36,889 nt of DNA. Source: Lachnospiraceae bacterium. Lineage in GTDB: Bacteria > Bacillota > Clostridia > Lachnospirales > Lachnospiraceae. The notes under the pieces were generated by a model. It searched no databases and was not told the origin of the DNA. It saw only the letters and a program-made list of their open reading frames with translations. The stretch covers positions 1 through 36,889 of the forward strand of contig JAGBBV010000004.1 of NCBI GenBank assembly GCA_017938315.1, written 5' to 3'. Below are positions 4,125 through 30,943 of this stretch, piece by piece; the first letter of the stretch is position 1; each line of letters opens with the position of its first letter. Made by a program: the position numbers and the translations under genes.

Positions 4125-5057
4125 TTAAATCATCCCCTGAAAGTTCTTCCCTATCTTCGCAATAAATCCAAGTACATCTTCCTTCATTGCCTCAGGGAAA
4201 GCGGTCAGAACCGGCGCCGTCTCAAAGCTCAGCACGCCTTTAAATCCGATTGCCTTAAGTCCTCTGACAAAGCCATCCCAGTCTGTTGATGTCTGATTCT
4301 CTCTTGTCTTTGTAAAAGTAAATGGTATCTGATGCAAATCTCCAATCCCGTCATTATCATGAATATGCAGTACCTTCAGCCTGTGACCTAATATCGTGAT
4401 GAACTTCTCCATATCCAGTCCCATCAGATTTGCATGACCTGTATCGAAGCAGAAGCCTAAGACCTCTGCCCCATAGTGGGCATTCATTCTGTCAATGCGC
4501 TCTGCAGCCTTATGGGCATCACAGCAAGGGCCTTCTATCAAACGCCCCTTGACGCTGTCATACAGATTTTCTATGCATATGGTAATGCCATACTCCTTCG
4601 CCATCGGCGCAATGGAGTTAATGAAATCTTCCGTCCGTTCCCACTCTGCGTCCTCCGAACCCAGAAGCCGCGCCAGCTTAAAGCCATGAATCACAATATA
4701 TGGGCACTTAAAGAATGCACATACCTTCATGCTCTTGGGAGCCACCACATTTCTTAAATACGCATTCAACTCCTTCGTGCCATTTGGCACATAATTTGGA
4801 TACGGCATATGCATCTGATTTATATAAATACCTGCATCTCCTGCCGCCTTCTTATGGGGTGCAAAAAAGTGCTCCAGTTCGAAATCTGACTGGTCAAAAA
4901 AACTGTTCAGCTCGCCATTATATAAAGCTTTGTTCATAAGATACGAATTCAGGCTGAAATCCGCGCAGGAAAATCCTGCCCTCTTTAACATCGCAAAGCC
5001 TTCTGCCGGTTTTTCGTCACACACCACGTTTTTTGTCTGTACGCCAATTTTCAACAA
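4125..5057 (-). CDS. Xylose isomerase-like TIM barrel, sugar isomerase/epimerase
   Basis: About 310 residues of an AP-endonuclease-2/xylose-isomerase-like TIM barrel (PF01261). Expected metal-site motifs are intact: IENLYD, FCFDTGHANL, LHIHDNDG with downstream DLHQIPF, and LSFETAP near the C end. Family members isomerise or epimerise small sugars or inositols in the cytosol; the substrate here is unknown. The frame extends to a TTG at 5075, but GGGAGG (5071-5066) followed by eight bases and tandem TTG codons at 5057/5054 points to a TTG start overlapping the TGA of the upstream gene, i.e. translational coupling. It is the last gene of the large glycan cluster and looks like an active partner of the degenerate barrel just upstream. 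Confidence 0.85.
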   Translation of the reverse strand: MLKIGVQTKNVVCDEKPAEGFAMLKRAGFSCADFSLNSYLMNKALYNGELNSFFDQSDFELEHFFAPHKKAAGDAGIYINQMHMPYPNYVPNGTKELNAYLRNVVAPKSMKVCAFFKCPYIVIHGFKLARLLGSEDAEWERTEDFINSIAPMAKEYGITICIENLYDSVKGRLIEGPCCDAHKAAERIDRMNAHYGAEVLGFCFDTGHANLMGLDMEKFITILGHRLKVLHIHDNDGIGDLHQIPFTFTKTRENQTSTDWDGFVRGLKAIGFKGVLSFETAPVLTAFPEAMKEDVLGFIAKIGKNFQGMI

Positions 5058-6289
5058 TTTCTCTGCCTCCCACAATTTCGCTCACTTTCAAAATCTGAAA
5101 ACGGCAAGTATTCATCATTATAATACTCGATCCTATTCTGAATCCCCATCTTCCGAAGCTGTTCCTCAATTTCCCTGTAATATACATTGCATATAAAAAC
5201 AGCACAGTCTTTGGGAATATTTCTTAACTCCTCAGGATTTTTCACTTCAATACCATCAGCCACAGTTCCCCATAAGTCCGGGTTATTATCGCAGGTAAAC
5301 AAAGGCGGATATTCCTTGCCATAATGCTTCATGTAATTGCTGAACATCTTTCCCGCGCCAAACATGACACGTTTGTCATATTTCTTAATTGTATGCTCCA
5401 TGGATATCTGCCAGGAAAAATAATCCACCACTTTCTTGATAAAAATATCAAAATCAGCTCTCAGCAAATGAGAATATGCTCCGGAAGTATCACGGAAATC
5501 AAAAATCAACTGTCCATCAAAATCCATCTTTCTTAATCCCCGAATAACTCCCAGCCAGTCCATTTGACTTTCTGCATCATTTTGTCTAATGACCACTGCC
5601 TTTACCCGCCCTTGAAGCAGATGCATAAATTCACAAAAATTCTGTCCTACAAGACTGCAGATTCTAATATCAATACACAATCCAAACTTGTTGTTCCCTG
5701 CCTTGCCATTTAATTCGTCCACAAATTCAGCCAGTCGATACGGATCACTAAAAGTTCCTCTTACCAAATGACCATTATATTCACTGTAATGATTCGGTAT
5801 TAATATACTAATTCCTTCTGCTAAATTATCTGTAAGAGAAAGATAGAAATCTGCATTCTTTTTCCATTCTTCCTCTGTCTCCATCTTCTTTATCAAAGGT
5901 TCAACGATGATATACCTGCATTCCGCTTTGATGCATGCCAGTATACTTTGCTTTGATATCTCATACACCAGCCATTCAAGATCAGCTCTTTTCGTATCCC
6001 ATGGCAATGATGGCGCTGCTCCGACCGTATTTTTCATATGCAGCTCACGGCATTGCGATATGAACTTGTCGGCATTCTCCACAAGTCTTTCCGGAAATAC
6101 AGAAGCAAAACAGCCATCCGGATATTCGTCCATCGTCTCCATTACTTCTTCCCGATGCTCCAGCTCATATGAAGGACAATATAACTTTAAATCTAATGCA
6201 ATATTATCAAACCCTGCACCTGCAAGCCTGTCAAGCGCTTTCGATCTTTTCTTTTCCGGAGCCCCATCCGGCATATATACAACATCCAT
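5051..6289 (-). CDS. Degenerate isomerase-like TIM barrel fused to a C-terminal FGAG Rossmann-like domain
   Basis: Residues about 1-290 align with the neighbouring isomerase through the frame of the barrel (for example LVRGTFSDPYRLAEFVDELN against LIEGPCCDAHKAAERIDRMN). The ligands do not carry over: IENL becomes LIPN, FDTGHA becomes IDIRIC, HIHDND becomes VIRQND, and FE becomes FD. It is probably a non-catalytic or repurposed barrel. Residues about 305-400 carry the cluster's shared domain: RVMFGAGKM, CDNNPDLWG, then NPEEL and the terminal LRKMGI. The ATG at 6289 abuts the stop of the upstream gene, with GAGGAG nine bases before it. It may act as a regulator or partner of the downstream isomerase; that is inference. 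Confidence 0.75.
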   Translation of the reverse strand: MDVVYMPDGAPEKKRSKALDRLAGAGFDNIALDLKLYCPSYELEHREEVMETMDEYPDGCFASVFPERLVENADKFISQCRELHMKNTVGAAPSLPWDTKRADLEWLVYEISKQSILACIKAECRYIIVEPLIKKMETEEEWKKNADFYLSLTDNLAEGISILIPNHYSEYNGHLVRGTFSDPYRLAEFVDELNGKAGNNKFGLCIDIRICSLVGQNFCEFMHLLQGRVKAVVIRQNDAESQMDWLGVIRGLRKMDFDGQLIFDFRDTSGAYSHLLRADFDIFIKKVVDYFSWQISMEHTIKKYDKRVMFGAGKMFSNYMKHYGKEYPPLFTCDNNPDLWGTVADGIEVKNPEELRNIPKDCAVFICNVYYREIEEQLRKMGIQNRIEYYNDEYLPFSDFESERNCGRQRNC

Positions 6290-8605
6290 CTATTGCATCT
6301 CCTCATGTTTCTTAAGTTTCTTTTTTAACTGTGTAGAACTTACTGACTGCGTATATGGAAAAAACACAATATCGGAACCATGCTGCTGCAGATATGTCTT
6401 CTGTGACAGCCAAGTGGGATTATTTTCATAGTCACTTCCCGAAAACTGCACATCAAAATGATACCTCCGAAATGCATCTTCTGTTGATGGCCTGTCTATC
6501 GGAATTTCCACTGCCTCATCCACGTATCGACAGGACTGTACGATTTCCAATCGCTCTTCAAACGAAATCACCGGCATTGTCTTTTTTTCCCGCATTACCT
6601 GCTCATCCGAAACAACACCGACAATCAGATATCTGCATTGTTCTTTGGCCCTCTTAAACATATTTAAATGCCCGATGTGAAACAAGTCAAAGACACCAGC
6701 TATATACCCCACATTATATTTTTTCTGAGCTGCCTTATCATCCGCATCTGCCAATACCAGTTCCTTTCTTGGCAGTTCATACTCCAACATTGGATTAAAG
6801 ATTGCGATTTCTCTGACTCCCATATCAAGAAGCTGGTCTAACACTTCCTGATAATCTTTGATACAGATAAATACTTTGCAGGGTACCTCTATTGTCTGAA
6901 GCACCTCAGGTGAAAAAATTTCATATCCCTCAAAATGTCTGCCCCACTTTTCCCGTGCATTATCTATCAGCCCGGCAATCTCATAAACGCTTCCATACTT
7001 ATCTAAAAAACGCTTGGTATATCTCCCGGAGCCAAATAAATATATTTTTTTACCGTAGGTGTTCTTAAATATGCTGCTAAAATACTTATCATAATTTTCC
7101 TGGGAATAGTTCATCCTCTGCCTGTTGGCATTAACAACATAATAATCACGTCTGCAGGATTTATGATAGATGGACAATTCCTTTTCATTTCTGAGCGGAG
7201 CCAAAAATTTCCACGCAAACTTGCGCCACTCGGCTGCATGTTCCTTCAAGCCAAAATGCTCAAGCATGTCATTCATTGGGTAAATCTGCTCAAAGCCGGA
7301 TTGTTTCATATATATTGTATCAATTGTCCTTAGCAGAATCGCTTTTGCAGGAAAGTTGTCAACATAGCTTTCCTGATCATAGAACAAAAACTTTCCATCA
7401 TCATAGAAACAATTCAAGGCAACCAAATCCGCATAGCCTCTTTTCAATATGATTCCAATCTCGTCCTTTTGTTCCTCAGAGCCTTCTGCTAACATTCTCC
7501 ATTTTTCCCGTGTGGGATCATCCTCTTTTCTGTTTTCCCATCCGGGTTCAAACTGTTCCCAATTCATATTCCGGTAATCAACATGCTCAGAAGATACTTT
7601 AATGTATTCCCAAAAGCATTCCAGTTCCTTAAGTAATGCCTGTACATCTTCTCTGAACAATTTTCTAAAATGTGCCAGCGCAGTCTCACTTTCGATGTAA
7701 GGCATTTGAATGGAATTATCTTTCAACACCACATTTACCATCGGAACATGGTGTTCTTTTAAATATTCATTATTTTCATACAACTGCCTGACAACACTTT
7801 GTCCTTCCGGAAACAATGGCTTTTTCACAACTGTTCCATCTTTCTTCAGAATTGTTGCCAGCGCATTTTGATGTCCTCTGTCAGTAGAGACCGTAATCTG
7901 GTTATATTTTCTCTCTGTGTCTTCCAATGTACACTCAATGAAGAAGCCGTTAGCCATCCCATGCAAGAGCCCGTTTGCACTCAAATCATCATACAAACGC
8001 TCTTCTTCCAAAAAAACAGTATCCGGTGATTTATACTGTGGAAAAATCCTGATATCCAGATTTTCTCTCGGAACATAATCATCTGCAATAATGATCTGCG
8101 GTCTGCTCAGACTTGGAAAAACAGAGAAGAATTTGTATTTTAGCTCCTCCCGGGTTAGAAATTCTTTGATTTCATCTTTTGAGTATTCCCTTCCCCCCAC
8201 CAATTCCTGCGCCTTCTTTGAAAAGCGCACGTAGTTCTCTATTCCGTCAAATATCCGATTTGAATAATAATCTTTTTCCCCACAAAAGTGTTTGATTGCC
8301 AGCCTGTTTTCTGCAAATAAGAGGAGTACTCCATCTGGTTTTAAATGCGACTTTAATACATGCAGAGTATGTTTCGGAATCGGACTTCTATCAATCACAC
8401 CGGCTCCAACAATATAGTCGTACTGTTTTATCAATGTATTTATCCTGTCAAGCTCCACTGTGTCAGCTTCCGGAAATACCTCTGATAAAATATCATACTC
8501 TTCTGCTCCGCACAAAATAAACAATTTATCTGAAGTATCCCTAAATTCATACCAGCGTATTAACCCTTGCGGCATTTCTCTGATTAAACTATCTGCATTA
8601 TTCAT
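6290..8605 (-). CDS. Multidomain protein: degenerate methyltransferase-like, kinase-like, FGAG and cytidylyltransferase domains
   Basis: A 771-residue protein with four recognisable parts. Residues about 20-190 look like a SAM-methyltransferase fold without a clear glycine-rich SAM loop. Residues about 230-470 look kinase-like: TILKKDGTVVKKPL could hold the nucleotide lysine, and ADLVALNCF...FLFYDQES resembles the catalytic D...N and metal-binding D of small-molecule kinases. Residues about 505-600 are the shared domain (KIYLFGSGRYTKRFL, GLIDNAREKWG). From about 625 to the end is a CTP-transferase of the TagD/choline-phosphate type, with GVFDLFHIGHLNMF (HxGH) and SVSSTQL. The likely role is to phosphorylate and CDP-activate a small alcohol for attachment to the glycan, fitting the LicD gene in the same cluster. 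The kinase and methyltransferase calls are inference. Confidence 0.75.
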   Translation of the reverse strand: MNNADSLIREMPQGLIRWYEFRDTSDKLFILCGAEEYDILSEVFPEADTVELDRINTLIKQYDYIVGAGVIDRSPIPKHTLHVLKSHLKPDGVLLLFAENRLAIKHFCGEKDYYSNRIFDGIENYVRFSKKAQELVGGREYSKDEIKEFLTREELKYKFFSVFPSLSRPQIIIADDYVPRENLDIRIFPQYKSPDTVFLEEERLYDDLSANGLLHGMANGFFIECTLEDTERKYNQITVSTDRGHQNALATILKKDGTVVKKPLFPEGQSVVRQLYENNEYLKEHHVPMVNVVLKDNSIQMPYIESETALAHFRKLFREDVQALLKELECFWEYIKVSSEHVDYRNMNWEQFEPGWENRKEDDPTREKWRMLAEGSEEQKDEIGIILKRGYADLVALNCFYDDGKFLFYDQESYVDNFPAKAILLRTIDTIYMKQSGFEQIYPMNDMLEHFGLKEHAAEWRKFAWKFLAPLRNEKELSIYHKSCRRDYYVVNANRQRMNYSQENYDKYFSSIFKNTYGKKIYLFGSGRYTKRFLDKYGSVYEIAGLIDNAREKWGRHFEGYEIFSPEVLQTIEVPCKVFICIKDYQEVLDQLLDMGVREIAIFNPMLEYELPRKELVLADADDKAAQKKYNVGYIAGVFDLFHIGHLNMFKRAKEQCRYLIVGVVSDEQVMREKKTMPVISFEERLEIVQSCRYVDEAVEIPIDRPSTEDAFRRYHFDVQFSGSDYENNPTWLSQKTYLQQHGSDIVFFPYTQSVSSTQLKKKLKKHEEMQ

Positions 8606-8610
8606 TCTGT

Positions 8611-9945
8611 CTAACTCCCCAGCACATCATTCATCCGTTTTCGTAATCTGTCATCTACTCTAAGAATTTTAGAAAAACCAAGTTTTTTTGCTTTTCTAAG
8701 CATAGGTAACTGCTTGTTTTCTGCAACTGCAACGATTAAAAGAAGCTGCTCCTTAAGCTCTGTGACCAACTGAATCGGGCGCAGCGTCTCTGTCCCTTCC
8801 GACACAACAAATCCCTCGATTATATCTTTTAATCCCAGCTTACATAAATAGGCATATACTCTTTGACCGTATGTGCCTGCTCCATATATGATTATCCTGT
8901 CCTGTTTCCCTAAATAGTCCTCAAGATATTCCGCATAAATTTCCTTCTGAACCGTATAGCTGTTCAGCTCCTGAATCTCTACATCGCGCACCGAATTCCA
9001 GAAAAACTGTTCTGTGTCCTTTAAAATATTCGTAATTATATTCCAATAATCATCCGTCCAGTACTCTGGTTTCAGCTCATCTGTTTCCTGTATTCTGAGC
9101 AGTTCTTTTCTAAATTCCTGATAAAAAGCTGACTTCAGCGCAACATGCAGTCGATTATAGTTCCAGTAATATGCCCGAAACATAAAAGCATTTCTGACAC
9201 CGACATAATAAGTATCTTTTATTTCCTTTTGACACATATATCGGTCAATCTCATGAATCTCATCACAGACAAAGAATATTTTATTATTAGAGTTGACCGA
9301 TGAACCGGCATTATCGATCCGATAATAATAATATGCATCATCTGTCAGAATCATCTTTTGTGCCATCATCATTGCCTTAAAATAAAAGGAAGTATCCTGA
9401 TAAGATGCCCCTGGTGTCTCCAAAAATCTGATATGATTTTCCTGCAGAAAATCCTTTCTATAAACAGCAGACCAGATATTGCAGGGAATTGCAAATAACT
9501 TCTTGCATTCCTTTGATGTTATCACTCTTTCACACATTTGGGACTCAAACAAGCTTACTTTCGCCGCCTGTTCGTTTTCAACCGCATAATGGGCAGACTT
9601 TACAATGTCTATACCGTCATCTGATGTAATCCGTGACATCAGGCGCTCATACATATCCGATGAGATGTAATCATCGCTCTCTACGATTCCGATATATTCT
9701 CCACTTGCTTTTTCTAATGCAAGGTTCATACTGCAGCCATATCCTGAATTTGCCTTGTGAATGACCTTGATTCGTTCATCCGCTGCTGCAATACTGTCCA
9801 ATATTTCAGGCGAAGAATCATTTGACCCGTCGTTAATACATATCACTTCAATATCCGTATAAGTCTGATTGATGATGCTTTCCAAACACTGTTTCAGATA
9901 TTTTTCTACGTTATATACCGGTACCAGAATCGATAATCTCGCCAT
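8611..9945 (-). CDS. GT2 glycosyltransferase with C-terminal FGAG domain
   Basis: A 444-residue protein. The GT-A fold of family 2 fills about residues 1-220, with SILVPVYNVEKYLKQCLES, ICINDGSNDSSPEI, and the metal-binding ESDDYI near residue 92. Residues about 345-435 hold the shared domain (RIIIYGAGTYGQRVYAYL), though it lacks the usual D-N after the second strand (it reads GFVVSEG). No membrane segment is visible, so it should work at the cytosolic face. The start has GGAGGG four bases upstream. It sits five bases before the next gene in a tight operon. The donor and acceptor sugars cannot be read from sequence. Confidence 0.88.
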   Translation of the reverse strand: MARLSILVPVYNVEKYLKQCLESIINQTYTDIEVICINDGSNDSSPEILDSIAAADERIKVIHKANSGYGCSMNLALEKASGEYIGIVESDDYISSDMYERLMSRITSDDGIDIVKSAHYAVENEQAAKVSLFESQMCERVITSKECKKLFAIPCNIWSAVYRKDFLQENHIRFLETPGASYQDTSFYFKAMMMAQKMILTDDAYYYYRIDNAGSSVNSNNKIFFVCDEIHEIDRYMCQKEIKDTYYVGVRNAFMFRAYYWNYNRLHVALKSAFYQEFRKELLRIQETDELKPEYWTDDYWNIITNILKDTEQFFWNSVRDVEIQELNSYTVQKEIYAEYLEDYLGKQDRIIIYGAGTYGQRVYAYLCKLGLKDIIEGFVVSEGTETLRPIQLVTELKEQLLLIVAVAENKQLPMLRKAKKLGFSKILRVDDRLRKRMNDVLGS

Positions 9946-9953
9946 ATGCCCTC

Positions 9954-11381
9954 CTACTCACTATCCTCCAATACATCATTCAAAGAAACAATCGGAAATT
10001 CTATACCATTTCTCCTTAACGTATGGTATATATCCTCAAAAAAGTATACTGCAGTAACTACTATAACATCTACCGCAGGTAATTTGTCCGTCGGCTTATA
10101 GACTGGTATTTCTGCTGAAATCCGATCTGCATTGCGGTCAATCACATAACACAATTCATTTTCTGTGTCAGTAAGTTCTTCTATCAGCAGTTTCCCAATA
10201 TCAGAAACACCATATACCGCTATCTTTCTATAGCCTTTTTCTTCAAAAAATCGAGACAGCTTCTTCCCACTATGAATCTCTCTTATCCATCTGGTCAGAA
10301 GCTTATTGTTTTTCTTCGTTCTGTTCAGCCTAAAATTTGCAGAATCCCTCTCCTTTTTTAATTTTAAAATATCTTCTCTTAAATCAATACCATATTTATA
10401 TGCTAACATGACTTTTCTTGTCAATTCATCGGCATATGCAATTTCCCTGATATATTTATCATCTATCCGTTCTAAAATTCCTTTTAGAATATTCTCATAT
10501 TCTTTTATTTCATTTTCTTCCAGTACCGCTTTATTTACTTCCTCCTGAAATCTCACCTGTACTGCATTCATAATAAAATACTGGCACATTGGTGCAAAAT
10601 ATCCGCAGTATTTCATAGACTGCTCATAAATTCCATCAAAAAGAAGTGTCAGATCCTCCAAATAATAGCGTTTCGCCTTACCATATAATTGGTTTGATGC
10701 GGAACTTTGGTCTTTCCTTACCCTATAATAGAACTTAACATCCTCTGTAAGCATTCCGTATTTCTTCTTATTCAAAATTATGGTATTAATAAAAGCGGAA
10801 TCTTCCCAACATTTCTGTTTTTCATTAAAAGGAAATTTTTCCGCTGCATCTCTTTTGACCAGACAATTGGAACCCAGACTCCTGATTGCCCGATAATCCT
10901 GATCAATATCAATTATTCTATCTTCTACAACGTTCTGATTTAACGGATGCGAACCTTCTCTTGCCTCAAAATACCACACATTAGAAGATACTGCATCAAT
11001 TTCATTGTCATTTTCCTCCAGGAAGTCAGCCATTCTCTGGTATGCATTATCAGACCACATATCATCTGAATCAAGGAAATTCACGTATTTCCCTACTGCA
11101 TATTTTAATCCGGTATTTCTTGCCACACTGACACCGCTATTTTTTTCCAGCTTTATGTATTTCACGTTCTCAGGATATTGCACGCGGTATTTTTCACATA
11201 GAATACCGCTGTTATCCGTGGAGCAGTCATTCACAAGAATGAGCTGAATGTTCTCCTCAAATCCTATGCTTTGTCTCAATATACACTCCACTGTCTCTGA
11301 AAGATATTTTTCCGTGTTATATACCGGAATAATTGTTGAAATCTTAAATGTTTTATCCATCACCGGCACAATTACAGACAT
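9954..11381 (-). CDS. GT2 glycosyltransferase with C-terminal FGAG-like domain
   Basis: A 475-residue protein. The family 2 domain begins at about residue 14 with STIIPVYNTEKYLSETVE, then LVNDCSTDNSG and NFLDSDDMW (the DxD site). A charged helical linker around residues 330-385 leads to the shared Rossmann-like domain (KIAVYGVSDIGKLLIEEL, CYVIDRNAD), where the second glycine-loop alanine is replaced by V-S. The ribosome site GAGGAG forms the end of the upstream gene, overlapping its stop codon, so the two are coupled. I take the ATG at 11381; an internal ATG seven codons later lacks a good ribosome site. No membrane segments. Confidence 0.87.
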   Translation of the reverse strand: MSVIVPVMDKTFKISTIIPVYNTEKYLSETVECILRQSIGFEENIQLILVNDCSTDNSGILCEKYRVQYPENVKYIKLEKNSGVSVARNTGLKYAVGKYVNFLDSDDMWSDNAYQRMADFLEENDNEIDAVSSNVWYFEAREGSHPLNQNVVEDRIIDIDQDYRAIRSLGSNCLVKRDAAEKFPFNEKQKCWEDSAFINTIILNKKKYGMLTEDVKFYYRVRKDQSSASNQLYGKAKRYYLEDLTLLFDGIYEQSMKYCGYFAPMCQYFIMNAVQVRFQEEVNKAVLEENEIKEYENILKGILERIDDKYIREIAYADELTRKVMLAYKYGIDLREDILKLKKERDSANFRLNRTKKNNKLLTRWIREIHSGKKLSRFFEEKGYRKIAVYGVSDIGKLLIEELTDTENELCYVIDRNADRISAEIPVYKPTDKLPAVDVIVVTAVYFFEDIYHTLRRNGIEFPIVSLNDVLEDSE

Positions 11382-11387
11382 GATGCA

Positions 11388-14428: not shown

Positions 14429-14464
14429 AAAATCCCTTCTTCGTCATCTATTTTACAATGTATA

Positions 14465-15610: not shown

Positions 15611-15631
15611 TCTTTATTCCTTTTTATGTAT

Positions 15632-20510: not shown

Positions 20511-20536
20511 TTACAATTCCCCTCTCCCCTGCATCT

Positions 20537-22185: not shown

Positions 22186-22187
22186 AT

Positions 22188-23027
22188 CTAAAACCCTACA
22201 AGCATTACACTGATTCCATCACCTATCGGTAATGCACTATATTTACCTTTCTTTTCTGATATAAATCTGTCTACCGCCTCTTTAGGTCCCCTAAAATTAT
22301 CTGCAAAATAGTCATGAATTAGAATTACACCATTTTTAATCATTTTATCTTCAAAATATACTAATCCATTGTATGTAGGCTCATATAAATCAAGATCAAG
22401 ATTCACGAAACAAAATCTTTCGTTAATGCCTTTTGCTGTATCCGGAAAATATCCTTTATAAATTCTACAGTTGTCTTTATATTGCATTTTTGATAAAACT
22501 AAATCTTCTGATGTATTTGAGTAATCTCCCACTTTTGCTTCTGACATGTTCAATTCTTTTTCTATATCTTTAGAATTAAAACCTTCAAATGTATCAAAAA
22601 GATAGAGTTTCCTATTCGAATAATAACTATTGATATATTTTGCAAAATCTCCCTCAAAAACACCAGCTTCAGCAACACAAACATTTTCATCTAAGTCTTT
22701 TTGCATTAAAGCCAGCTTTTCCAAAAAAACTCTTCGACTTTCCAAAGGAGCTGTCACAAAACTATCATCTATCATATTTTCTTCAATTCCTAATTCATCT
22801 AATTGTTTCTTTATACTATCCAATCCCGGTGCAGAGGTTATAACAACTTTATCATACTCTAGTTTTAAGCACTCATTAACTTCATAGATTTGTATTGAAT
22901 TAATACTCCCCCCCCGTATCTTTGTACTATCATTATCAGTAAATCCTACTATTTTATATTTTTTTGAAATTTGTTCAAATAATCTAATTGCACCACCACC
23001 AGCACCAAAACAAATTGCTTTTTGCAT
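22188..23027 (-). CDS. TylF-type methyltransferase with N-terminal FGAG domain, in-frame G8 tract
   Basis: A 279-residue protein. Residues about 1-95 are the shared domain (KAICFGAGGGAIRLFEQI, GFTDNDSTKIRGGS). Residues about 110-279 are a TylF/MycF-like O-methyltransferase: VAEAGVFEGDFAKYI, LYLFDTFEGF, CFVNLDLDLYEPTYNG and ILIHDYFADNFRG. Such enzymes methylate sugar hydroxyls using SAM and a divalent metal. Codons for R38-G39-G40 lie in a run of eight G residues, so slippage would shift the frame early in the gene. The longer frame starts at 23045, but AGGAGG lies nine bases before the ATG at 23027, which I prefer. Paralog of the interrupted gene at 29958-30943. Confidence 0.85.
   Translation of the reverse strand: MQKAICFGAGGGAIRLFEQISKKYKIVGFTDNDSTKIRGGSINSIQIYEVNECLKLEYDKVVITSAPGLDSIKKQLDELGIEENMIDDSFVTAPLESRRVFLEKLALMQKDLDENVCVAEAGVFEGDFAKYINSYYSNRKLYLFDTFEGFNSKDIEKELNMSEAKVGDYSNTSEDLVLSKMQYKDNCRIYKGYFPDTAKGINERFCFVNLDLDLYEPTYNGLVYFEDKMIKNGVILIHDYFADNFRGPKEAVDRFISEKKGKYSALPIGDGISVMLVGF
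22908..22915 (-). repeat. G8 homopolymer tract inside a methyltransferase gene (phase currently ON)
   Basis: Eight consecutive C on the plus strand are G8 in the coding sequence (CGG GGG GGG). In frame at 8; gain or loss of one base would truncate the protein about 40 residues from its start. Such a run stands out in an AT-rich region. Confidence 0.7.
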
Positions 23028-23041
23028 ATCATGTATCCTCC

Positions 23042-24655
23042 TCATTCATATAGACTTGGTGTAATTATTCTTACATCTATTAAGCCTTTTACCTTATTTT
23101 TATATATTTCATATAACTTCTTTACTTCTCTATTTGTATCCTTTACAGATAACCTTCCATTTGTATTCGGAAAACTATTGTTTACATAATTATTCTGTTC
23201 TCCTATTAATCCATCAAAGCCTGCCAAATTTATCTTTGATACTTTAATTTTCTTTAACAAATTCAGCAGCATTATTGTACTATTATCATAAAGGATACTA
23301 TCTTCAACAATAAGTGATGCATAATCCACCATAATTGTATCTTTCACATGATCATGCATGCTTGACACAAGAATGCATTTTTCTCTTTCAATACTTTTAC
23401 ATACCTTTCCCCAATGAATTGGATTAGCATAAAAATGGTAATCACACTTAATGTGTTCTGGAATAAAATTCACACTGACTACTATTGGATTATTCTCTCT
23501 AATAAAAGAACAAATAGTTTCCTGATATGTGTTAACAGTTCTGCCAGGAGCAATTATTAATACTTCTCTTCCTTCAAATTCTTCTGTGAGCTTTTTTAAG
23601 GATTCCTTATCATCATATTGATTTTCATTATATTCTCTATAAATCCGCTGTATGTTTTCATAATCATATCTCTGTCTTGTAGCTTCATCTATACCAGAAA
23701 TAATATATTTTATATCTTTACTATTAAGCCTATACTTATTAGTGAGATAAATTATATTGTTTGGATGTGACTTATATATTCCTGCCATAAATGCTGGTAT
23801 TGAATATCCCCATTCATATTGCTGTTTTAATGGTTCCAAGTATCGGTCTATTGTATCCAATATTTTATCTAAATTATAATCATAATTCTTTTTCCTATTT
23901 AAATAGTTTACAATCAATTCGGTATTAAGATTTCCTGCACATTTTCCCATTCCATTTAATGTTGCATCTAAAATAACCTTTCTTCTCCCCTCTGCCAATC
24001 GTACTATCTCCTGCGAAAATGCAAATGATGACTGAAAGTTATTATGGGAGTGAATATCAATACAAATATCTTTATTTAAATTGAAATCAACCAGATTGTA
24101 ATAATGAGTCATATCGTCTAAATACATTGCACCATATGTATCTACAATCCCATAACTATATGGTTCAATTTCATTGATCATATCTATTAAATTCAATAAG
24201 TCCTTATCTGAATAAGCTAACGAATTTACACCTTGTACAAATAATTTATAACCTTGATTTTTAACCTTTATAAGTGCTTTTTTTATATCATCTAGCTGCG
24301 TCTCAAATTGTTTTTTGGTAAATCCAACTCTAATTCCCGTAATAGAATCACCTGAACATTTTTCCAACTTATCAAAATCATACATATTGAAATCAATAAA
24401 TGCAACATACATTGTATTCTTTTCATTTTGTTCTGGTAAAAATCTACTTATCTGATGCACTTCAGTAAAAAATGTTGAATCCCCTCTATAGTCTACTAAC
24501 TCATGGGAACGTAAAAAACCTACTTCTACAATATCAATACCAGAGTCCGTCAAATCTCTTGTCATATTGCCTATTGTCGCATCATCAAATTTGCAATCAA
24601 TAATTCTTCCACCATCTCTTAAAGTACAATCCAATACCTGAACATTTTTCATCAT
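23042..24655 (-). CDS. DRE-TIM aldolase (4-hydroxy-2-oxovalerate aldolase-like) with C-terminal DUF115-like domain
   Basis: A 537-residue protein. Residues about 1-290 are an HMGL-like TIM barrel: VLDCTLRDGGRIIDCKF (catalytic R-D), IVEVGFLRS, IVDTYGAMYLDDM, DIHSHNNFQSSFAF (the metal-binding HxH) and LNGMGKCAGNLNTEL. It resembles the HOA-like aldolase group, longer than a typical member because of about 190 extra C-terminal residues. These include EVLIIAPGRTVNT, CDYHFYANP and INLAGFDGL, which parallel the nucleotide-sugar-transferase-like DUF115 protein at 26203. It overlaps the CMP-sugar synthetase by four bases. I infer carbon-chain extension of a sugar with pyruvate or a related donor in place of a NeuB or KdsA synthase. 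The reaction is not proven by sequence. Confidence 0.8.
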   Translation of the reverse strand: MMKNVQVLDCTLRDGGRIIDCKFDDATIGNMTRDLTDSGIDIVEVGFLRSHELVDYRGDSTFFTEVHQISRFLPEQNEKNTMYVAFIDFNMYDFDKLEKCSGDSITGIRVGFTKKQFETQLDDIKKALIKVKNQGYKLFVQGVNSLAYSDKDLLNLIDMINEIEPYSYGIVDTYGAMYLDDMTHYYNLVDFNLNKDICIDIHSHNNFQSSFAFSQEIVRLAEGRRKVILDATLNGMGKCAGNLNTELIVNYLNRKKNYDYNLDKILDTIDRYLEPLKQQYEWGYSIPAFMAGIYKSHPNNIIYLTNKYRLNSKDIKYIISGIDEATRQRYDYENIQRIYREYNENQYDDKESLKKLTEEFEGREVLIIAPGRTVNTYQETICSFIRENNPIVVSVNFIPEHIKCDYHFYANPIHWGKVCKSIEREKCILVSSMHDHVKDTIMVDYASLIVEDSILYDNSTIMLLNLLKKIKVSKINLAGFDGLIGEQNNYVNNSFPNTNGRLSVKDTNREVKKLYEIYKNKVKGLIDVRIITPSLYE

Positions 24656-25314: not shown

Positions 25315-25325
25315 TGTTTTTACCC

Positions 25326-26216
25326 CTATTTTTCCAAATATAATACAATATAGTCAGCTAATCCTTTTTCACTGCATTGGCTTTTCCACACATTGTCTAG
25401 TGTCTCTGTGATAAATTCATCACTTACTGCCGTTCCTGGTCCTTTATCCTTTATCCATCCCATCATATTTCCAATGCCATATCTTTGAAAGTATTTAATA
25501 TTAACTTTAGAAAAGCCTTCTTGTTCTGCAATCAATTTCAGGTTTTTTTCTGAAAAAATCCAAAGATGCTGAGTGCTAAATAATAATTTTTTTTCGTAAA
25601 TATCCCCTAGTAGCTTTCTCATTATGGGTGCATCTGTTGGTGTTCCTATTATTGCTTTTCCGCCTTCTTTTAACAACATATATATATCTTTGATAAATCC
25701 TTTCGGATCTTCCACATGTTCAATTACATCAAACGATGTTATAACATCCATTTGCTTTTCGTATTTATCTAATGCATCTAACATATATCCATAAGTTTGA
25801 AACCCTTTTTTATCCATAATTGCCCTATATGTCTCAGATGGTTCAACAGCAATTACTTCTTTTGATACACCTTTCAAAAAGTCAAGAAAAGCTCCACAAC
25901 CGCATCCAATATCAGCTACTACTTTATTCCTATAAATATCAGTTCCTGTATATATAAGCTTATCCAAAGTTTCCTTATCATGTAATTCGTAAAACTTGTC
26001 CGCTTCTGAGCTTCCTTCCAGTTCTTCCCTATATTCTTTGCTTTCATAGTATTGCTGCACATTATCAAACTGATTGTCATGCCAGATAACTTTACATTCT
26101 TCACATTGATATATCGGAACATTATTAGTTGTGTATCTTCCTAATCCACCATTTCGAATCAACCCTTGATAAATAGTTCTGCAATGTTGACTTCCACACA
26201 ATTTACATTTTCTCAT
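25326..26216 (-). CDS. Class I SAM-dependent methyltransferase with N-terminal zinc-ribbon-like cysteines
   Basis: A 296-residue protein. The N end has CKLCGSQHC and, some 30 residues on, YQCEECKVIW, a likely zinc site seen on sugar methyltransferases. The Methyltransf_23-type core follows: VVADIGCGCGAFLDFL (SAM loop), VIAVEPSETYR, ITSFDVIEHVEDPKGFI and MLLKEGGKAIIGTP. It overlaps the upstream gene by 14 bases, and GGAG seven bases before the ATG at 26216 supports the start. The probable target is a nucleotide-sugar or glycan; the position methylated is unknown. The C-methyltransferase C-terminal domain found in some relatives is not visible. Confidence 0.85.
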   Translation of the reverse strand: MRKCKLCGSQHCRTIYQGLIRNGGLGRYTTNNVPIYQCEECKVIWHDNQFDNVQQYYESKEYREELEGSSEADKFYELHDKETLDKLIYTGTDIYRNKVVADIGCGCGAFLDFLKGVSKEVIAVEPSETYRAIMDKKGFQTYGYMLDALDKYEKQMDVITSFDVIEHVEDPKGFIKDIYMLLKEGGKAIIGTPTDAPIMRKLLGDIYEKKLLFSTQHLWIFSEKNLKLIAEQEGFSKVNIKYFQRYGIGNMMGWIKDKGPGTAVSDEFITETLDNVWKSQCSEKGLADYIVLYLEK

Positions 26217-27444
26217 TTTCTATCTCCGCAAACACTTCATCTAAATTTTTTCGTTCAAATACTTCAAGTTTTCCACCTCTAGTGGCATTATAAATCTTAA
26301 CCCCATGTGAATCAGCATACTGTCTTGCCGAATAATACGCATTCTTTATTTCTTCTTTATAAGATACTGCAAATTTTTCCCGTATTCCATCTGAATATGA
26401 CTCACAAAAATGTGTATTATTTCCATCTTTTCCCCATGAAAAGTCAACGCCAATAAGATATATCTTCTTAAATCCCATATATACTGCGAACTGTAGCATG
26501 TCATACATTATTGTTCTTCCACCATATACTCCTTTTTCTAATTCAGTTGAAAAACTTGGATAACCTGGAAAATAGTTTTCAAATTTTCCACAATAAAAAT
26601 GAACTTTTTTATTCTTCATTTTATCTTGATTTACTATTTTTCTTATGAAATAATTGCATTCATTAGGTAAATTTTCTTGTTCCTTTTCAAAGAAAATGTT
26701 ATCTCCCAACATATAAAAATCCGGTCGCCAATTGGTTTTGGAAAAAATCTTGTATATTCCATTGCAGCCAAAACTATAAATATTATGATTATGTATACAT
26801 TCCAAATCTTTATCCGTCAAGCTTGGACCATTTCCAACCAAAAAGCAAACATCTCCATTATGCTTGTTATAATATTCCTTTAAATATTGAAATTCTTCAG
26901 CATGCCATCTTTCAATATCTTTATTTAAATCTAATACTTTAAAAAAATCATATTCAATATGAGACAATTTCTCACTATCGTCAACCTCAGTAATTACTAA
27001 AACTTCCTTATTTTGATTTTCTAAATTTATATTGTCTTTATCAAAATAATGTATACCACATTTTTTATTTATTTCAGAAATTATTTTTTCAGAAATTGGT
27101 GTTCTACTATAAAATGTAATATTCTCATAGTGAATTAAATTCCACCGTTCTACTATTTCTTTAGCGTTGTAAAACCCTGATTGCATATATGGGCATACAT
27201 AATAGTTTTTAATTCCTACTTTTTCCAGTTGTCTTGATACACTTAGTGCCCCTGTATTCGTAGTTATTATGACTTTTTCATTATTATACTTTTCTAAAAA
27301 CTCATCAAATGAAATTATAGATATCTTTCGTAGCTTTGACCCTACTTTAGTTTTATCATTATCAACAATGGCATATATATTTTCTATGCCAAAAAATTCT
27401 ATAGCACTATGGCAATTATTTCCTGCGCCAAAAAAATAATACAT
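26203..27444 (-). CDS. DUF115/GT42-like transferase with N-terminal FGAG domain
   Basis: A 413-residue protein. Residues 1-90 are the shared domain (YYFFGAGNNCHSAIEFF, AIVDNDKTKVGS, LEKVGIKNYYVC). Residues about 200-400 read like the MptE-like/DUF115 fold (PF01973): CFLVGNGPSLTDKDLECI, YSFGCNGIYKIF, RPDFYMLGDN, then FAVYMGFKKIYLIGVDFSW and IYNATRGGKLEVF. The GNGPSL and GVDF elements are also shared with GT42 sialyltransferases, and Maf flagellin nonulosonate transferases belong to PF01973. The likely job is transfer of a CMP-activated acidic sugar, which the adjacent aldolase, phosphatase and synthetase could supply. GAGGTG four bases before the ATG supports the start. Confidence 0.8.
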   Translation of the reverse strand: MYYFFGAGNNCHSAIEFFGIENIYAIVDNDKTKVGSKLRKISIISFDEFLEKYNNEKVIITTNTGALSVSRQLEKVGIKNYYVCPYMQSGFYNAKEIVERWNLIHYENITFYSRTPISEKIISEINKKCGIHYFDKDNINLENQNKEVLVITEVDDSEKLSHIEYDFFKVLDLNKDIERWHAEEFQYLKEYYNKHNGDVCFLVGNGPSLTDKDLECIHNHNIYSFGCNGIYKIFSKTNWRPDFYMLGDNIFFEKEQENLPNECNYFIRKIVNQDKMKNKKVHFYCGKFENYFPGYPSFSTELEKGVYGGRTIMYDMLQFAVYMGFKKIYLIGVDFSWGKDGNNTHFCESYSDGIREKFAVSYKEEIKNAYYSARQYADSHGVKIYNATRGGKLEVFERKNLDEVFAEIENEKM

Positions 27445-27465
27445 ACTTCACCTCTATTATACCTT

Positions 27466-28662
27466 TTATTTTTTATTTAGAATACTATCTGATAATATCA
27501 TCGCCTTACTGACTACAACATCAGAATTATAATGTTCCCATTCTCCCCATCTTCCAAGTCCATACACTTCTCGTTGTTTAAAATAATCCAATAACTCTTG
27601 CATCAATTCTTTTTTTCCAATAGTGTTCAACGGATATGCATATTTGTTAATATAATGATATTGGCTATCATTCGTATGTAGCCTTTCTGTATTTGTTTCT
27701 GACCAGTATCCAATAGAATTAGCACAAAAATTTTTTCTAACTAAGATTCTATGATAATCTAACTCTTTCTGCGGATAATAGATCCAATGTGCATCTGTAT
27801 TTATCTCTCCTTGATAATAGCTAATTGTTACTGATGTATACTTTAACTGTTCAATTATGTTCTTTATTTTTCGATTAATTCCTTCTATATTTTCAAACTC
27901 CATCCAAGGTATTGTATTTATAATATAGTCTGCGTGAAATCTACAATTCACAACATGATGTTCTACGTCAATCTCTCTTACATTCTCATTATATATAATT
28001 TTATCAGATATTCTATAGGCTAGTCTCTTCCATACTTCTCCACTACCATATCTCTTAGGATAATAGAATTGAGTATGTGCTGGTTGACTACCGTATGGGC
28101 AATGTTCCAAACAACTACGTAGAGTCTCATCAAAGGATACATTAGGTAACTTATCTAACCAATAAGTTCCTAATATATTAAGATTTTCTCCAAACATTTT
28201 CTGATTATAAGGAATCATGTACTCATCCGCTATCTTGTTTCCCAATTTCCAATATATCCAATCAACAAACTTCTCAGGCATCTTTTGATTATTATTGCAT
28301 CCTGCTGCTGCAGTTGATTTTAAATATATTATTTGTTCATCTATTGGTAATTGCCATATATTTGACTCAATTGGGCTATTTATAAACTGATTATGTAGAT
28401 ATATCTTAGAATTTCTTGTGAACAATTTCCATTCGTCCATTGGCATATATTTAAAAAGAAATTCAAGTACTTTTTGATTTTTTGTATCAATAAAATGCCC
28501 TCCACCAATATCCAATGGTTTATCATCAATAATTTTGCTTCTGCAAAGTCCACCGGCTTCTTCTTCCTTTTCTAATACAAGAAAATCTGTTTCTCCTTTT
28601 TCAAGTAACCTATTAGCAAATGTTAGTCCAGCCGGACCTGCACCTAAAATCAAAAATTTCAT
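27466..28662 (-). CDS. FAD-dependent amine oxidase-like / UDP-galactopyranose-mutase-like flavoprotein
   Basis: A 398-residue flavoprotein with an N-terminal dinucleotide-binding fold: KFLILGAGPAGLTFANRL, FLVLEKEEEAGGLCRS and LDIGGGHFID. Further family features are YMIPYNQKMFG, KRYGSGEVWKRLA, YIINTIPWMEF and the C-terminal GLGRWGEW, which resemble the second FAD/substrate region of NAD(P)-binding protoporphyrinogen-oxidase-like and UGM-like enzymes in polysaccharide clusters. The probable role is redox-neutral or oxidative modification of a nucleotide sugar, for example ring contraction to a furanose. True UGMs share this overall pattern, but I cannot confirm their substrate residues. No FGAG fusion. 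Confidence 0.75.
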   Translation of the reverse strand: MKFLILGAGPAGLTFANRLLEKGETDFLVLEKEEEAGGLCRSKIIDDKPLDIGGGHFIDTKNQKVLEFLFKYMPMDEWKLFTRNSKIYLHNQFINSPIESNIWQLPIDEQIIYLKSTAAAGCNNNQKMPEKFVDWIYWKLGNKIADEYMIPYNQKMFGENLNILGTYWLDKLPNVSFDETLRSCLEHCPYGSQPAHTQFYYPKRYGSGEVWKRLAYRISDKIIYNENVREIDVEHHVVNCRFHADYIINTIPWMEFENIEGINRKIKNIIEQLKYTSVTISYYQGEINTDAHWIYYPQKELDYHRILVRKNFCANSIGYWSETNTERLHTNDSQYHYINKYAYPLNTIGKKELMQELLDYFKQREVYGLGRWGEWEHYNSDVVVSKAMILSDSILNKK

Positions 28663-28667
28663 TTTTA

Positions 28668-29690
28668 CTAAAAAATCCCCTCTTCCAACATAATTTCTTT
28701 TAATAATTCTGCTCGTTTGCTTGTTACATGTTTTTCTAAATACTTTTTGTATTTTTCAATATTAATTGTTGCATCTCTATATTTATTCATAAGTATTTCA
28801 AATTCTTCATAGTTCTTAACACATTGACACATTTTATCCATTTCATACCATTCTGTATCTGCATTTTTAGGGTACCTAGCAATAATATGACATTGTCCAG
28901 CTATTTCTTCCAAAAAATGTGGCGTAACTTGATTCCATCCATTTGCATCCAATCTTGTATTATCCATACCTGGTGTCGTATATACTGCAACCTTAGATTG
29001 TTTTACTAAATTCCAATATTCTTCTCTTGTATCTCCATAACTAATAAATTTCCCTGTTCTTGATAAGTAGTATATATAATGACCATTTTCATATTTTCTA
29101 CGTACCAAGCTAAAGTCTTCATGTCTATTTTCATATTCATCTATATATTTCATTAACATAGGGTTTTGTCTTGCAAACAATACTAAATCATATTTTTTTT
29201 CAAATTTGTTCGAAAAATCAATATAATAATCTGGTAAAGATAACGGAAAATGATAAATTTTTATAGGGCATTGTTTTCTTAATAAATAGTCATATACTTC
29301 CTTGCTCGATACTAATACAAAAGGATTATTTTTGTATGCATTAATAAATAATCTATATTGATCTTCGCCCAAGAAATAGTCTATAAGACATGGTATGTAT
29401 TTCTTTGAATTATAAATACCCTCTTGACGTTTAGTCGCCGCATCAAACATAAATACACCCTTTGGTCTTTTTATATCTATAATACGAAATAATTTATAAA
29501 TAGGAATATGTGTTTTCATATATATTTTTCTGCATTTTTCATCAAAATTAAATTCAAAGTTACTTCTAACGCATACTTCTTTTTCTAATACCTGACCTAT
29601 TATATCTTCCCATTCATAAATAATATCAAAGCAATATTTTTTATTATTTTCTTTTGTTTTCATTATCTCTCTTTTTGACAAAATAACCAC
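28668..29690 (-). CDS. Probable GT-B glycosyltransferase (family not assigned)
   Basis: A 340-residue protein with a GT-B-like C-terminal half: YDLVLFARQNPMLMKYI, SYGDTREEYWNLVKQSKVAVYTTP, then TPHFLEEIAGQCHIIARYP, the position where CgeB/GT1-like enzymes bind the nucleotide-sugar. The N-terminal half (FDIIYEWEDIIGQVLEKEV, PKGVFMFDAAT) fits the acceptor-side Rossmann fold. I do not recognise the exact family. Start: GTG at 29690 with AGGAG five bases before it; an internal ATG ten codons on has a poorer site. It follows a 267-base gap, the largest break inside the cluster. Confidence 0.65.
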   Translation of the reverse strand: MVILSKREIMKTKENNKKYCFDIIYEWEDIIGQVLEKEVCVRSNFEFNFDEKCRKIYMKTHIPIYKLFRIIDIKRPKGVFMFDAATKRQEGIYNSKKYIPCLIDYFLGEDQYRLFINAYKNNPFVLVSSKEVYDYLLRKQCPIKIYHFPLSLPDYYIDFSNKFEKKYDLVLFARQNPMLMKYIDEYENRHEDFSLVRRKYENGHYIYYLSRTGKFISYGDTREEYWNLVKQSKVAVYTTPGMDNTRLDANGWNQVTPHFLEEIAGQCHIIARYPKNADTEWYEMDKMCQCVKNYEEFEILMNKYRDATINIEKYKKYLEKHVTSKRAELLKEIMLEEGIF

Positions 29691-29957
29691 TTTTTCTCCT
29701 AATATATGACCTTCAATAATTTCTCATAAATAGAGTAAATTTTACTAATCATCTTTCCATTTTCTTATAGTTTCTTCCAGCATTCTCTAGTATATTGATT
29801 TCTTAATAACCGGACTTTTAAAATAATAATCATATAAAACCTAAATCGTCCTCTCCCTTACAATTACCATTCACTTTTGCGATGCAATTATATCTATTTT
29901 GGACTAAAATTTTTTCTTATCAAATTAGATTCATTGAAGTATATTATCAAGCTCAGA
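29691..29957. other. Intergenic gap inside the glycan cluster
   Basis: AT-rich interval between the methyltransferase stop and the GTG of the glycosyltransferase. On the minus strand TATAAT occurs near 29891, but no good -35 lies at the right distance, so a promoter is only possible. Short interrupted frames suggest decayed coding sequence. No terminator hairpin with a T-run is seen. Confidence 0.4.
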
Positions 29958-30943
29958 TCACTTCATAATCACCAGCGTCCCATTCGCATCGCACAATGGC
30001 ATTTTATTCAGGAATTCATACCTGCTTTCATATCTGTCCACCGCCTTCTCAACACCTCTAAGACTGCTGTTATAATCATGTACAAAAATATATCCTCCTT
30101 TTACCATCCTTGGATAAAAATATTCTAATGCATGATATATTGACTCCTCAAAATCAACGTCAATCGACACAAATTTGAATATATCTTCCAACCCATTTAA
30201 AGACTCTGGAAAATATCCCTGTTTTATTTCTATTTGTTCCAAATGCTGCATTTTCTCAATTACTTTTTTTACATTGGTATCTTTGTACGCTGACACAAAG
30301 CTGTCAGTGCAATTTCCATTTTTAACTTCATTCAAAGCTTCATTTGCATCAAAACCATCAAAAGTATCAAAAAGGTACAACTTACTATTTGGAAATGCTG
30401 CATTAATATATTGAGCAAACTCTCCCCGAAAAACTCCTACTTCGGCAACAGCACCCCTAAGCTTTCTTTTTCTGATTTCTTTTACTACTAGCTCAAAGCA
30501 TTTAATGCGTACATAATCTTTTTCGCCGTACCCCCCCCCCGAACTAATGTTTGTATATCTGTAGTATCATATGCCTCCACTCCTCGGACAATATGATACC
30601 GGTTTTGAATTATTTGCGCATATTCTTCTCCGACCACACTTTTAATGAAATCATAGTCTTGATTCAAGTCTTTTAATTCAAAATTCTCATATGTAAAAAT
30701 TACCTTGTCTAAAGTTATACCTAAGTCTATACATTGTTCATATATTTCCTTTGAGTAAAGGTTTATAACTAATACCGCATCATAATCAACATCTAATAAT
30801 TCTTGGGGCAGGAGTACTTTCCTTCCCATATACTCATCACATTTTTTGTTGCTATCTATAAATCCCTTAATCTGATCTACTGGGACATACCTTCCAATCA
30901 CTTTTCCTACCAGTCTCCCAGTTCCCCATACATATAAATTCAT
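29958..30943 (-). pseudogene. FGAG-TylF methyltransferase gene, frame broken at a G10 tract (phase-variable, OFF)
   Basis: Read to the tract, residues 1-135 are the shared domain plus linker (LYVWGTGRLVGKVI, GFIDSNKKCDEYM, QTLVR). With ten G residues the frame then stops at 30488 after 151 residues. In the next frame the protein resumes at once as YGEKDYVRIKCFELV, AVAEVGVFRGEFAQYI, LYLFDTFDGF, VSIDVDFEESIYHALEYF, IFVHDYNSSLRG and TLVIMK: a complete TylF-type methyltransferase. Eight or eleven G would restore a protein of 327 or 328 residues, so I treat the gene as switched off, not decayed. A basecalling error in the run is the alternative. The start is the ATG at 30943, or the TTG at 30949 nearer to GGAG. 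Confidence 0.75.
30531..30540 (-). repeat. G10 homopolymer tract, candidate slipped-strand phase switch
   Basis: Ten consecutive C on the plus strand (G10 in the coding sense), the longest G/C run in the window, placed exactly where the methyltransferase frame breaks. The open frame needs a count of 8 or 11. Confidence 0.8.

Follow-up and report, generated by a model that had tools for sequence, protein, structure and literature searches.

Why should one small domain recur on many different enzymes of a single glycan gene cluster? This question is raised by contig JAGBBV010000004.1 of a Lachnospiraceae bacterium, which is 36,889 bases long, belongs to a genome of 2.63 Mb, and was analysed in its entirety (hereafter, the window). 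An earlier note on the window had described a Rossmann-like module fused to 14 unrelated glycan enzymes and had suggested a docking module or a sensor of a common ligand. We found that the module is, judged by sequence, one domain family, that in the own genome its presence on the glycosyltransferases (GTs) of family 2 (GT2) follows the gene cluster, and that the clusters tagged with it are statistically linked to flagellin. With somewhat less than even confidence, we read the module as a putative association tag with a nucleotide pocket and favour this reading over a pure sensor. The modules, the genes that carry them, and the untagged genes between 4125 and 31818 lie on the minus strand, coordinates are positions of the whole stretch, and genes are called by their first coordinate.

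To examine whether the segments form one family, the 14 segments were cut and aligned, and hidden Markov models (HMMs) built from 13 of them were searched against the 32 open reading frames (ORFs) of the window. Twelve of the 14 held-out segments were recovered at 25.7–62.7 bits, while non-members reached at most 11.7 bits; those of 8611 (10.7 bits) and 9954 (14.4 bits) were weak. With the profile iterated over relatives, which includes 8611 and 9954 or their relatives, all 14 scored at least 30 bits (30.3 for 8611 and 50.1 for 9954). These results indicate that the segments are one Rossmann-type family of mini-Rossmann domains of about 85–100 residues, as the earlier note had supposed. In 8611, the D of the D-N/K-N motif that it had given for the module is absent. 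No Pfam model reached its cut-off over the 14 modules, the nearest including PglD_N, C2185-like_N, and Methyltransf_14. PglD_N (PF17836; cut-off 23.4 bits) gave at best 20.0 bits in the window (14465) and 23.3 bits in one relative, and matched 38 of 145 modules at E ≤ 0.01. C2185-like_N (PF22674; cut-off 27 bits) gave at best 23.0 bits (genome search) or 20.2 bits (hmmscan) in the window and 24.2 bits in the own genome. A scan of 20 window proteins gave no match at E ≤ 1 to PF13727, the CoA_binding_3 or large phosphoglycosyl transferase (Lg-PGT) domain, and an NCBIfam scan of ten proteins, eight of them from the window, showed nothing over the module but two weak Rex matches, well short of the cut-off. 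That the modules weakly match many NAD-binding families of Pfam is read as kinship of fold and nothing more, and the resemblance to CoA_binding_3 and PglD_N noticed earlier stands in the sense that the family lies near these domains.

All 14 segments are present in the sequence of the genes to which they had been assigned, and their positions in the proteins were as described. The module is C-terminal on five GT2s, namely 8611..9945 (module 3, 8641..8910), 9954..11381 (module 4, 9969..10238), 14465..15610 (module 7, 14465..14746), 16762..17829 (module 8, 16777..17049), and 20537..21700 (module 11, 20549..20839), and on the isomerase-like TIM barrel protein 5051..6289 (module 1, 5111..5386), which was recovered by the leave-one-out profile and scores 110 bits with profile A1. 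It is N-terminal on the TagF-like protein 11388..12998 (PF04464; module 5, 12585..12905, with an insert of ~12 residues), the GT4s 12974..14428 (module 6, 14144..14428) and 17866..19308 (module 9, 19021..19308), the radical SAM protein 19317..20510 (module 10, 20166..20453), the TylF-type methyltransferase 22188..23045 (module 12, 22758..23033), and the MptE-like (DUF115) protein 26203..27444 (module 13, 27181..27441). In the 771-residue protein 6290..8605, it is internal (module 2, 6782..7060; Pfam and leave-one-out profile). The last module (module 14, 30680..30952) is the N-terminal part of an interrupted module-TylF gene; it had been placed at 29958, but only the TylF part lies there (ORF 29958..30380), and the module is in ORF 30488-30970. 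The partners are indeed different, yet with five GT2s, two GT4s, and two TylF proteins beside the TagF-like, radical SAM, MptE-like, isomerase-like, and 771-residue proteins, they amount to about eight kinds rather than 14 unrelated enzymes.

A search of the own genome with the profile at E ≤ 1 gave 24 places: 14 in the window, seven on another contig (C16), and three other or weak ones, namely Rex (contig C15), a 2-hydroxyacid dehydrogenase named by eye (C25), and a weak match (C26). C16 carries a second tagged cluster, with GT8, RgpF, two GT2, DUF4422, and DUF268 proteins and a stand-alone module. Among relatives, own genome included, 33 of 60 genomes matched at E ≤ 1e-6, a level at which Rex can appear. 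At E ≤ 1e-10, 90 of the 392 genomes searched from the order matched, as did 24 of the 398 from the phylum (own genome counted in both), and since these searches scored at most 13 and 12 candidates per genome, respectively, copies per genome are lower bounds. Therefore, the module is not restricted to the window cluster. The module was present in 304 of the 663 ORFs of 40 stretches picked for density, taken together with the window and the C16 stretch. It was also present in 490 of the 1281 ORFs of 80 named loci, which were found only via relatives of gene 6290 and are mostly Lachnospiraceae by title; 73 of these loci had at least three tagged proteins. The collected set without duplicates contained 772 tagged proteins among 1904. 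The module is spread over Lachnospiraceae and other Firmicutes, and the comparison of a profile with Pfam and with genomes, which the earlier note had proposed, gave one family recurring many times per cluster.

We then asked which enzymes carry the module. The own genome has 32 GT2 matches; all seven in the two tagged clusters were tagged, compared with none of the 25 elsewhere (Fisher 3e-7), so that tag presence among these GT2s is all-or-none by cluster. With only 7 of 32 tagged, the module is not a fixed accessory domain of GT2, nor is it a standard part of each enzyme family wherever that family occurs. In five further genomes, where matches were placed by hand, eight of the nine GT2 matches inside tagged clusters were tagged, and no tagged GT2 was seen outside them among the matches listed (of 191). 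Across the collected loci, transferase and modifying-enzyme groups were tagged in 415 of 486 cases (422 of 541 when the LicD and DUF3880 groups are added), compared with 2 of 104 for precursor-enzyme groups (epimerase, IspD, CTP_transf_3, nucleotidyl transferase, NeuB, aminotransferase, and the 34685 type). Each group was named from one representative or seed profile, and the isomerase-like group (67 of 132 tagged), the anchor family of 6290 (100 of 110), and unnamed groups are outside this count. The tag prefers transferases and modifying enzymes over precursor enzymes.

Partner kinds were determined by Pfam on 289 tagged proteins in three lots (25 families listed of 45, 48, and 57) and on 20 representatives, in five of which nothing matched beyond the module, or nothing whatever. 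Among the partners were GT2, GT4, GT8, GT11, GT-D, GT32-type, WbsX, RgpF, TagF-like, LicD, DUF4422, MptE-like, DUF268, pyruvyl transferase, and FkbM proteins, TylF and further methyltransferases, radical SAM proteins (some with SPASM, some not), HAD proteins, TIM-barrel isomerase-like proteins, and cytidylyltransferases. With about twenty partner kinds, the module is not tied to one reaction, as had been suggested. Partner labels came from seed profiles and a stricter grouping, after blastp grouping had chained unrelated enzymes; of the 772 tagged proteins, 138 had no seed label and 28 were stand-alone. In the 80 named loci the module was C-terminal in 261 cases, N-terminal in 119, internal in 107, and stand-alone in 13, most of the internal ones coming from the anchor family of 6290, which accounts for 100 of them in the combined set. 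Habits of placement were apparent: GT2s carried it C-terminally (196 of 200) and radical SAM proteins N-terminally (19 of 19), and among GT4s it was N-terminal in 32 and C-terminal in 17.

Some proteins contain two modules (L137:2857-4800, L123:10921-12435, and L135:14887-16272), near each end in two of these, and ten more such proteins were found in the named loci. Stand-alone modules (L154:9479-9967, L025:17339-17767, L115:12951-13436, and others) are proteins of about 140–165 residues, in which about 50–70 residues precede the module and the sequence is near some GT2 C-termini; module 4 of the window, on the GT2 9954, is near such stand-alone modules of relatives. Stand-alone modules could act in trans.

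The module could also be an ordinary accessory domain of certain enzyme lineages, contributing for example to stability or dimerisation, with no role in the pathway, these lineages merely sharing islands. In agreement with this explanation, in 501 of 761 cases, where 67 would be expected, the nearest module of another cluster sat on the same type of partner, and a module tree (353 modules, 21 labels) required 113 partner changes compared with 194–207 with shuffled labels. On the other hand, 20 changes would be the minimum, which 113 far exceeds; as only 85 columns underlie the tree, this figure may overstate movement. Moreover, 13 of 45 small well-supported clades mix partners, and modules 48–62% identical occur on unrelated partners, the average for different partners being 21%; examples are the modules of a stand-alone protein and a GT2, and those of a methyltransferase (N-terminal) and a GT4 (C-terminal). 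The tendency of nearest modules to share their partner type speaks against the free movement that the earlier note had proposed. Together with the range of partner kinds and the untagged GT2s elsewhere in the own genome, which by themselves already weaken this explanation, these results make a plain accessory domain quite improbable.

Since flagellin was seen among the untagged neighbours when the loci were scanned, its presence and distance were counted across genomes. Flagellin was found in 30 of 30 densely tagged genomes and in 55 of 55 further genomes with at least two module matches, a set that leaves out genomes with one module match at E ≤ 1e-10, compared with 38 of 51 comparison genomes (47 without a module match and four with a single match near the Rex level). 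In the 30 genomes, a flagellin-type gene lay within 20 kb of a tagged cluster in 13 (2.3 expected) and within 50 kb in 18 (4.7 expected), where the expectation places clusters at random and ignores contig ends, and the genomes were picked for density and include close kin. Counted by hand, at least 12 of the other 55 genomes had flagellin within 20 kb and at least 16 within 50 kb. Tagged clusters are statistically linked to flagellin. In addition, relatives of gene 6290 with 35–52% identity share a contig with flagellin in eight of nine genomes, at 2–32 kb, among the matches listed, these nine having been picked after the flagellin positions were seen.

The second tagged cluster of the own genome has what defines a flagellin glycosylation island, namely glycan genes in a flagellar locus. 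Upstream of it on C16, in the direction of transcription, are flgL, fliW, a flaG-like gene, fliD, fliS, a DUF3880-like gene on the other strand, and flagellin; from flagellin to the tagged cluster follow two LicD-like genes, two cytidylyltransferase-like genes, and an FkbM-like gene, with small ORFs interspersed. Flagellin and flgL were named by Pfam and the rest by eye, and the nearest module gene is 13 kb from flagellin. The gene on the opposite strand between fliS and flagellin (L232:11715-12896) is glycosyltransferase-like, and DUF3880-like by eye. In many genomes at least, tagged clusters look like flagellin glycosylation islands, and the relatives of 6290 suggest that the window cluster is probably part of a flagellin glycosylation system.

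Alternatively, tagged clusters may build a capsule or a teichoic-acid-like surface polymer, the nearness of flagellin marking only a variable chromosome region. Phosphate-linked surface polymers typically involve TagF-like, LicD, and cytidylyltransferase genes, and such genes were matched in the window; moreover, the window contig is without flagellin, and many tagged clusters are on contigs without flagellin among the matches listed. The excess of flagellin within 20 kb (13 of 30 genomes), the contigs that relatives of 6290 share with it, and the position of the own C16 cluster in a flagellar locus argue against this explanation, which we consider doubtful. Furthermore, the scheme proposed for the type A modification of Clostridioides difficile flagellin also has a cytidylyltransferase and a TagF-like phosphotransferase, which would add a phospho-amino acid to the glycan (PMC10714395). 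By analogy, 6290 and 11388 of the window could likewise place a phospho-amino acid on a glycan. The type B modification of C. difficile flagellin is the subject of PMC5207246.

To obtain a view of the fold, the 5051 module was modelled by AlphaFold2 with 145 modules as input (predicted local distance difference test score, pLDDT, 89). Structural matches of the predicted model by VIA, in which Z values within 1 are tied, were 2g6t of Clostridium acetobutylicum (Z 11.6; root-mean-square deviation [rmsd] 2.7; 97 aligned), the WbpM-type 3nkl (11.3; 2.9; 92), Rex (10.2; 3.2; 91), PerB (10.0; 6.1; 95), WbaP (9.9; 2.7; 88), succinyl-CoA synthetase (9.7; 3.2; 101), FkbM 2py6 (9.5; 3.2; 94), and KijD1 (9.1; 2.9; 92); the top match by Foldseek was Rex. 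Profile searches gave E values of 2.8e-11 for 3nkl, 2.6e-9 for Rex, 2.2e-7 for 2g6t, 2.8e-6 for VioB, and 1.5e-3 for WbaP, and the hhalign probability was 97% for the own Rex and 42%, 9%, and 1% for three other window proteins. In 791 aligned modules (effective 592), the glycines of GxG were conserved in 97% and 92% and a third glycine in 57%, and an acidic residue after strand 2 was kept in 79%. The full GxGxxG was present in 42%. Among 761 modules, 127 had no acidic residue, and in 108 it was replaced by V-S/T (V-type); V-types, to which module 3 of the window belongs, stood beside D-types in 68 of 120 loci. The model suggests that the module has a nucleotide-type pocket and is kin to the NAD domain of Rex, the WbpM-type N-terminal domain, PglD_N, and the regulatory domain of WbaP.

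This kinship bears on another explanation, that the module is a pure nucleotide or NAD(H) sensor, each copy tuning its own enzyme so that flux follows one metabolite, with no complex formed. The nearest relatives of known function do sense nucleotides, Rex with NAD(H) and the WbaP domain with uridine nucleotides (PMC10942596), and the GxG and the acidic residue are kept. Almost no cluster signature was seen among the modules, as a common ligand would predict: module identity was 21.2% within and 20.9% between clusters, and a cluster-specific docking code, which we considered, is unsupported. Most contacts of the WbaP dimer are made by this domain, UMP, UDP, and UTP stabilise it, and a wider feedback on enzymes of the pathway via such domains has been proposed (PMC10942596); in EpsZ, a relative of WbaP, a response regulator is modelled to aid the active dimer, with these domains in contact (PMC12802240). 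What speaks against sensing alone is that precursor enzymes, the usual targets of feedback, are hardly ever tagged (2 of 104), that N-terminal, C-terminal, internal, and stand-alone placement is hard to reconcile with allosteric coupling, and that the acidic residue is absent in one set of modules and the full GxGxxG in more than half. We regard a pure sensor as somewhat unlikely.

The tag, which may sit at either end of a protein or stand by itself, is mainly on glycan-acting enzymes and not on those that make precursors, and the glycans of these islands are probably attached to a soluble protein; therefore, recruitment fits better than feedback. The pocket is kept, and given the behaviour of the relatives, a nucleotide presumably takes part. 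In the association reading that we favour, the tag would gather soluble enzymes acting on the growing glycan, either among themselves or around flagellin as the acceptor or its chaperones. The contact would be steadied or gated by a bound nucleotide, which could be NAD(H) or a nucleotide of uridine or cytidine. A bolder form, which we offer as speculative and rather unlikely, is a nucleotide-gated plug: the mini-Rossmann tag at either end would admit any soluble enzyme to a cytoplasmic assembly line decorating flagellin, and glycan pathways would evolve by swapping tagged parts. The D and V pocket types could then be two plug kinds or two ligands.

Several observations weigh against the association reading or its link to flagellin. 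The family could be explained by sensing alone, as those of its close relatives whose function is known sense nucleotides. The near equality of module identity within and between clusters speaks against a cluster-specific docking code, and the nearest module with an unlike partner was in the same cluster in 18 of 757 cases (7.3 expected). Tagging is also incomplete: LicD was tagged in 7 of 39 cases and the DUF3880 transferase group in 0 of 16, wholly untagged groups included GT2 (0 of 6 and 0 of 4) and GT4 (0 of 6 twice), and a separate tally of the collected loci gave 34 complete GT2 matches and 21 complete GT4 matches without a module. Conversely, the tagged proteins 5051 and 6290 resemble precursor enzymes. 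As for flagellin, same-genus genomes with no or one module match have it as well (12 of 12), a flagellin or FliD-like gene was in the flanks (up to 10 kb) of only 11 of 80 named loci, and besides its absence from the 36,889-base window contig, flagellin was not on the tagged contig among the matches listed in G359 (two contigs) and G420 (nine contigs).

The window contains further genes among and around the tagged ones. Untagged are a xylose-isomerase-like TIM barrel protein (4125..5075), which adjoins its tagged relative 5051 (27% identity over 222 residues, E 1.8e-24), and, by Pfam, a polysaccharide pyruvyl transferase-like protein (15632..16735), a HAD phosphatase (21697..22185; KdsC-like by eye), an HMGL-like aldolase protein (23042..24655), a cytidylyltransferase of PF02348 (24652..25314; CMP-acid-sugar synthetase-like by eye), a SAM methyltransferase (25326..26216), a flavoprotein (27466..28662; amine oxidase / NAD_binding_8), and a LicD protein (30961..31818). 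The untagged protein 28668..29690 had no Pfam match at E ≤ 1. The tagged protein 6290 has four parts, a methyltransferase-like part, a kinase-like part (by eye), the module, and a cytidylyltransferase of PF01467; 14 relatives have 39–45% identity, and relatives are encoded at 237 places of the named genome collection (tblastn, E ≤ 1e-3; other cytidylyltransferases are possibly among them). DUF115 is the family of Maf flagellin glycosyltransferases, and the core of 26203 weakly matched PDB 5mu5 (E 0.034), which we take to be a Maf structure. A phmmer search of 30488 against PDB gave no match at E ≤ 1, and in plasmids a tblastn search with 12974 returned nothing but GT4 matches, each below 60% identity and none covering more than 80% of the query.

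The break in the interrupted module-TylF gene coincides with a run of ten G (30531-30540; C on the plus strand), and a run of eight G lies inside the other module-TylF gene (22908-22915). Such homopolymer runs are often phase-variable. Over the 2.42 Mb of the loci, however, there were 15 runs of at least nine G or C where a first-order Markov model predicts 16.3, which is no enrichment, and we therefore make no claim of phase variation; ten of the 15 were in or beside tagged genes (p 0.15). At the contig end (195-3646) are two neighbouring AAA-ATPase_like/PDDEXK_9 proteins, one of which belongs to a group of 14 untagged proteins of the collected loci. A GDPD-type phosphodiesterase adjoins a fusion of a cytidylyltransferase with a GFO/IDH/MocA oxidoreductase (33951-36022), an arrangement that could hint at a donor such as a CDP-activated polyol. 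Gene 34685 was considered as a phosphoglycosyl transferase; this was ruled out by Pfam, which gave a cytidylyltransferase and a GFO/IDH/MocA oxidoreductase.

The enzymes of a glycan pathway are commonly regarded as independent of one another; here, one added domain is common to many enzymes of a pathway. It is present in hundreds of proteins, most of them from Lachnospiraceae, and indicates which enzymes form a set. If docking is true, the module illustrates a way for many soluble transferases to reach a single acceptor protein ahead of its export, and it could serve as a natural tag in artificial glycan pathways; if sensing is true, the nucleotide control proposed for WbaP extends to entire pathways. 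As a sequence marker, the module also allows candidate flagellin glycosylation islands to be found and delimited, and it helps annotate proteins without a Pfam match, such as 5051.

Among known systems, PglD_N, VioB, and PerB resemble the module in fold and by the sub-threshold Pfam matches. The PglD_N domain precedes a left-handed helix acetyltransferase and contributes to its substrate site, whereas no left-handed beta-helix acetyltransferase followed the module in the 14 window proteins, whose partners are of other families or unnamed, and none was seen among the module proteins here. To the NAD(H)-binding domain of Rex, the likeness is a profile match and 97% probability with the own Rex; Rex is a DNA-binding repressor, whereas the module proteins carry enzyme domains and no Rex-type winged-helix DNA-binding domain, and the true Rex of the genome is a separate match. 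The N-terminal domain of 2g6t, an uncharacterised protein, is kin by fold, as is C2185-like_N, whose 27-bit cut-off the modules do not reach (best 24.2); we infer that C2185 names the 2g6t gene. In FkbM (2py6) and in sugar C-methyltransferases (KijD1, Methyltransf_14), the extra Rossmann domain is on a single enzyme kind. The domains of WbaP (PF13727) and 3nkl are described (PMC10942596, PMC12802240) on large phosphoglycosyl transferases with a membrane bundle and on PglF-like dehydratases, that of WbaP having a swapped beta-hairpin; here there are about twenty partner kinds, with no sugar-phosphate transferase with a membrane bundle among the 25 families listed per Pfam lot of tagged proteins. 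Clostridial flagellin islands, including C. difficile type A, share variable glycan genes in a flagellar locus, a proposed cytidylyltransferase and TagF-like transferase, and methyltransferases with the tagged clusters; in Clostridium, the accessible part of PMC13317340 describes the islands as variable, ascribes recruitment to tetratricopeptide repeat (TPR) domains or GlfM, and mentions no shared tag domain. In the open-access literature, searched by titles and abstract starts with strict terms, we found no description of a module common to a whole glycan pathway. The fold superfamily and flagellin islands were known already, and what appears to be new is the tag shared over a pathway and its link to flagellin; this link and the second tagged cluster had escaped the earlier note.

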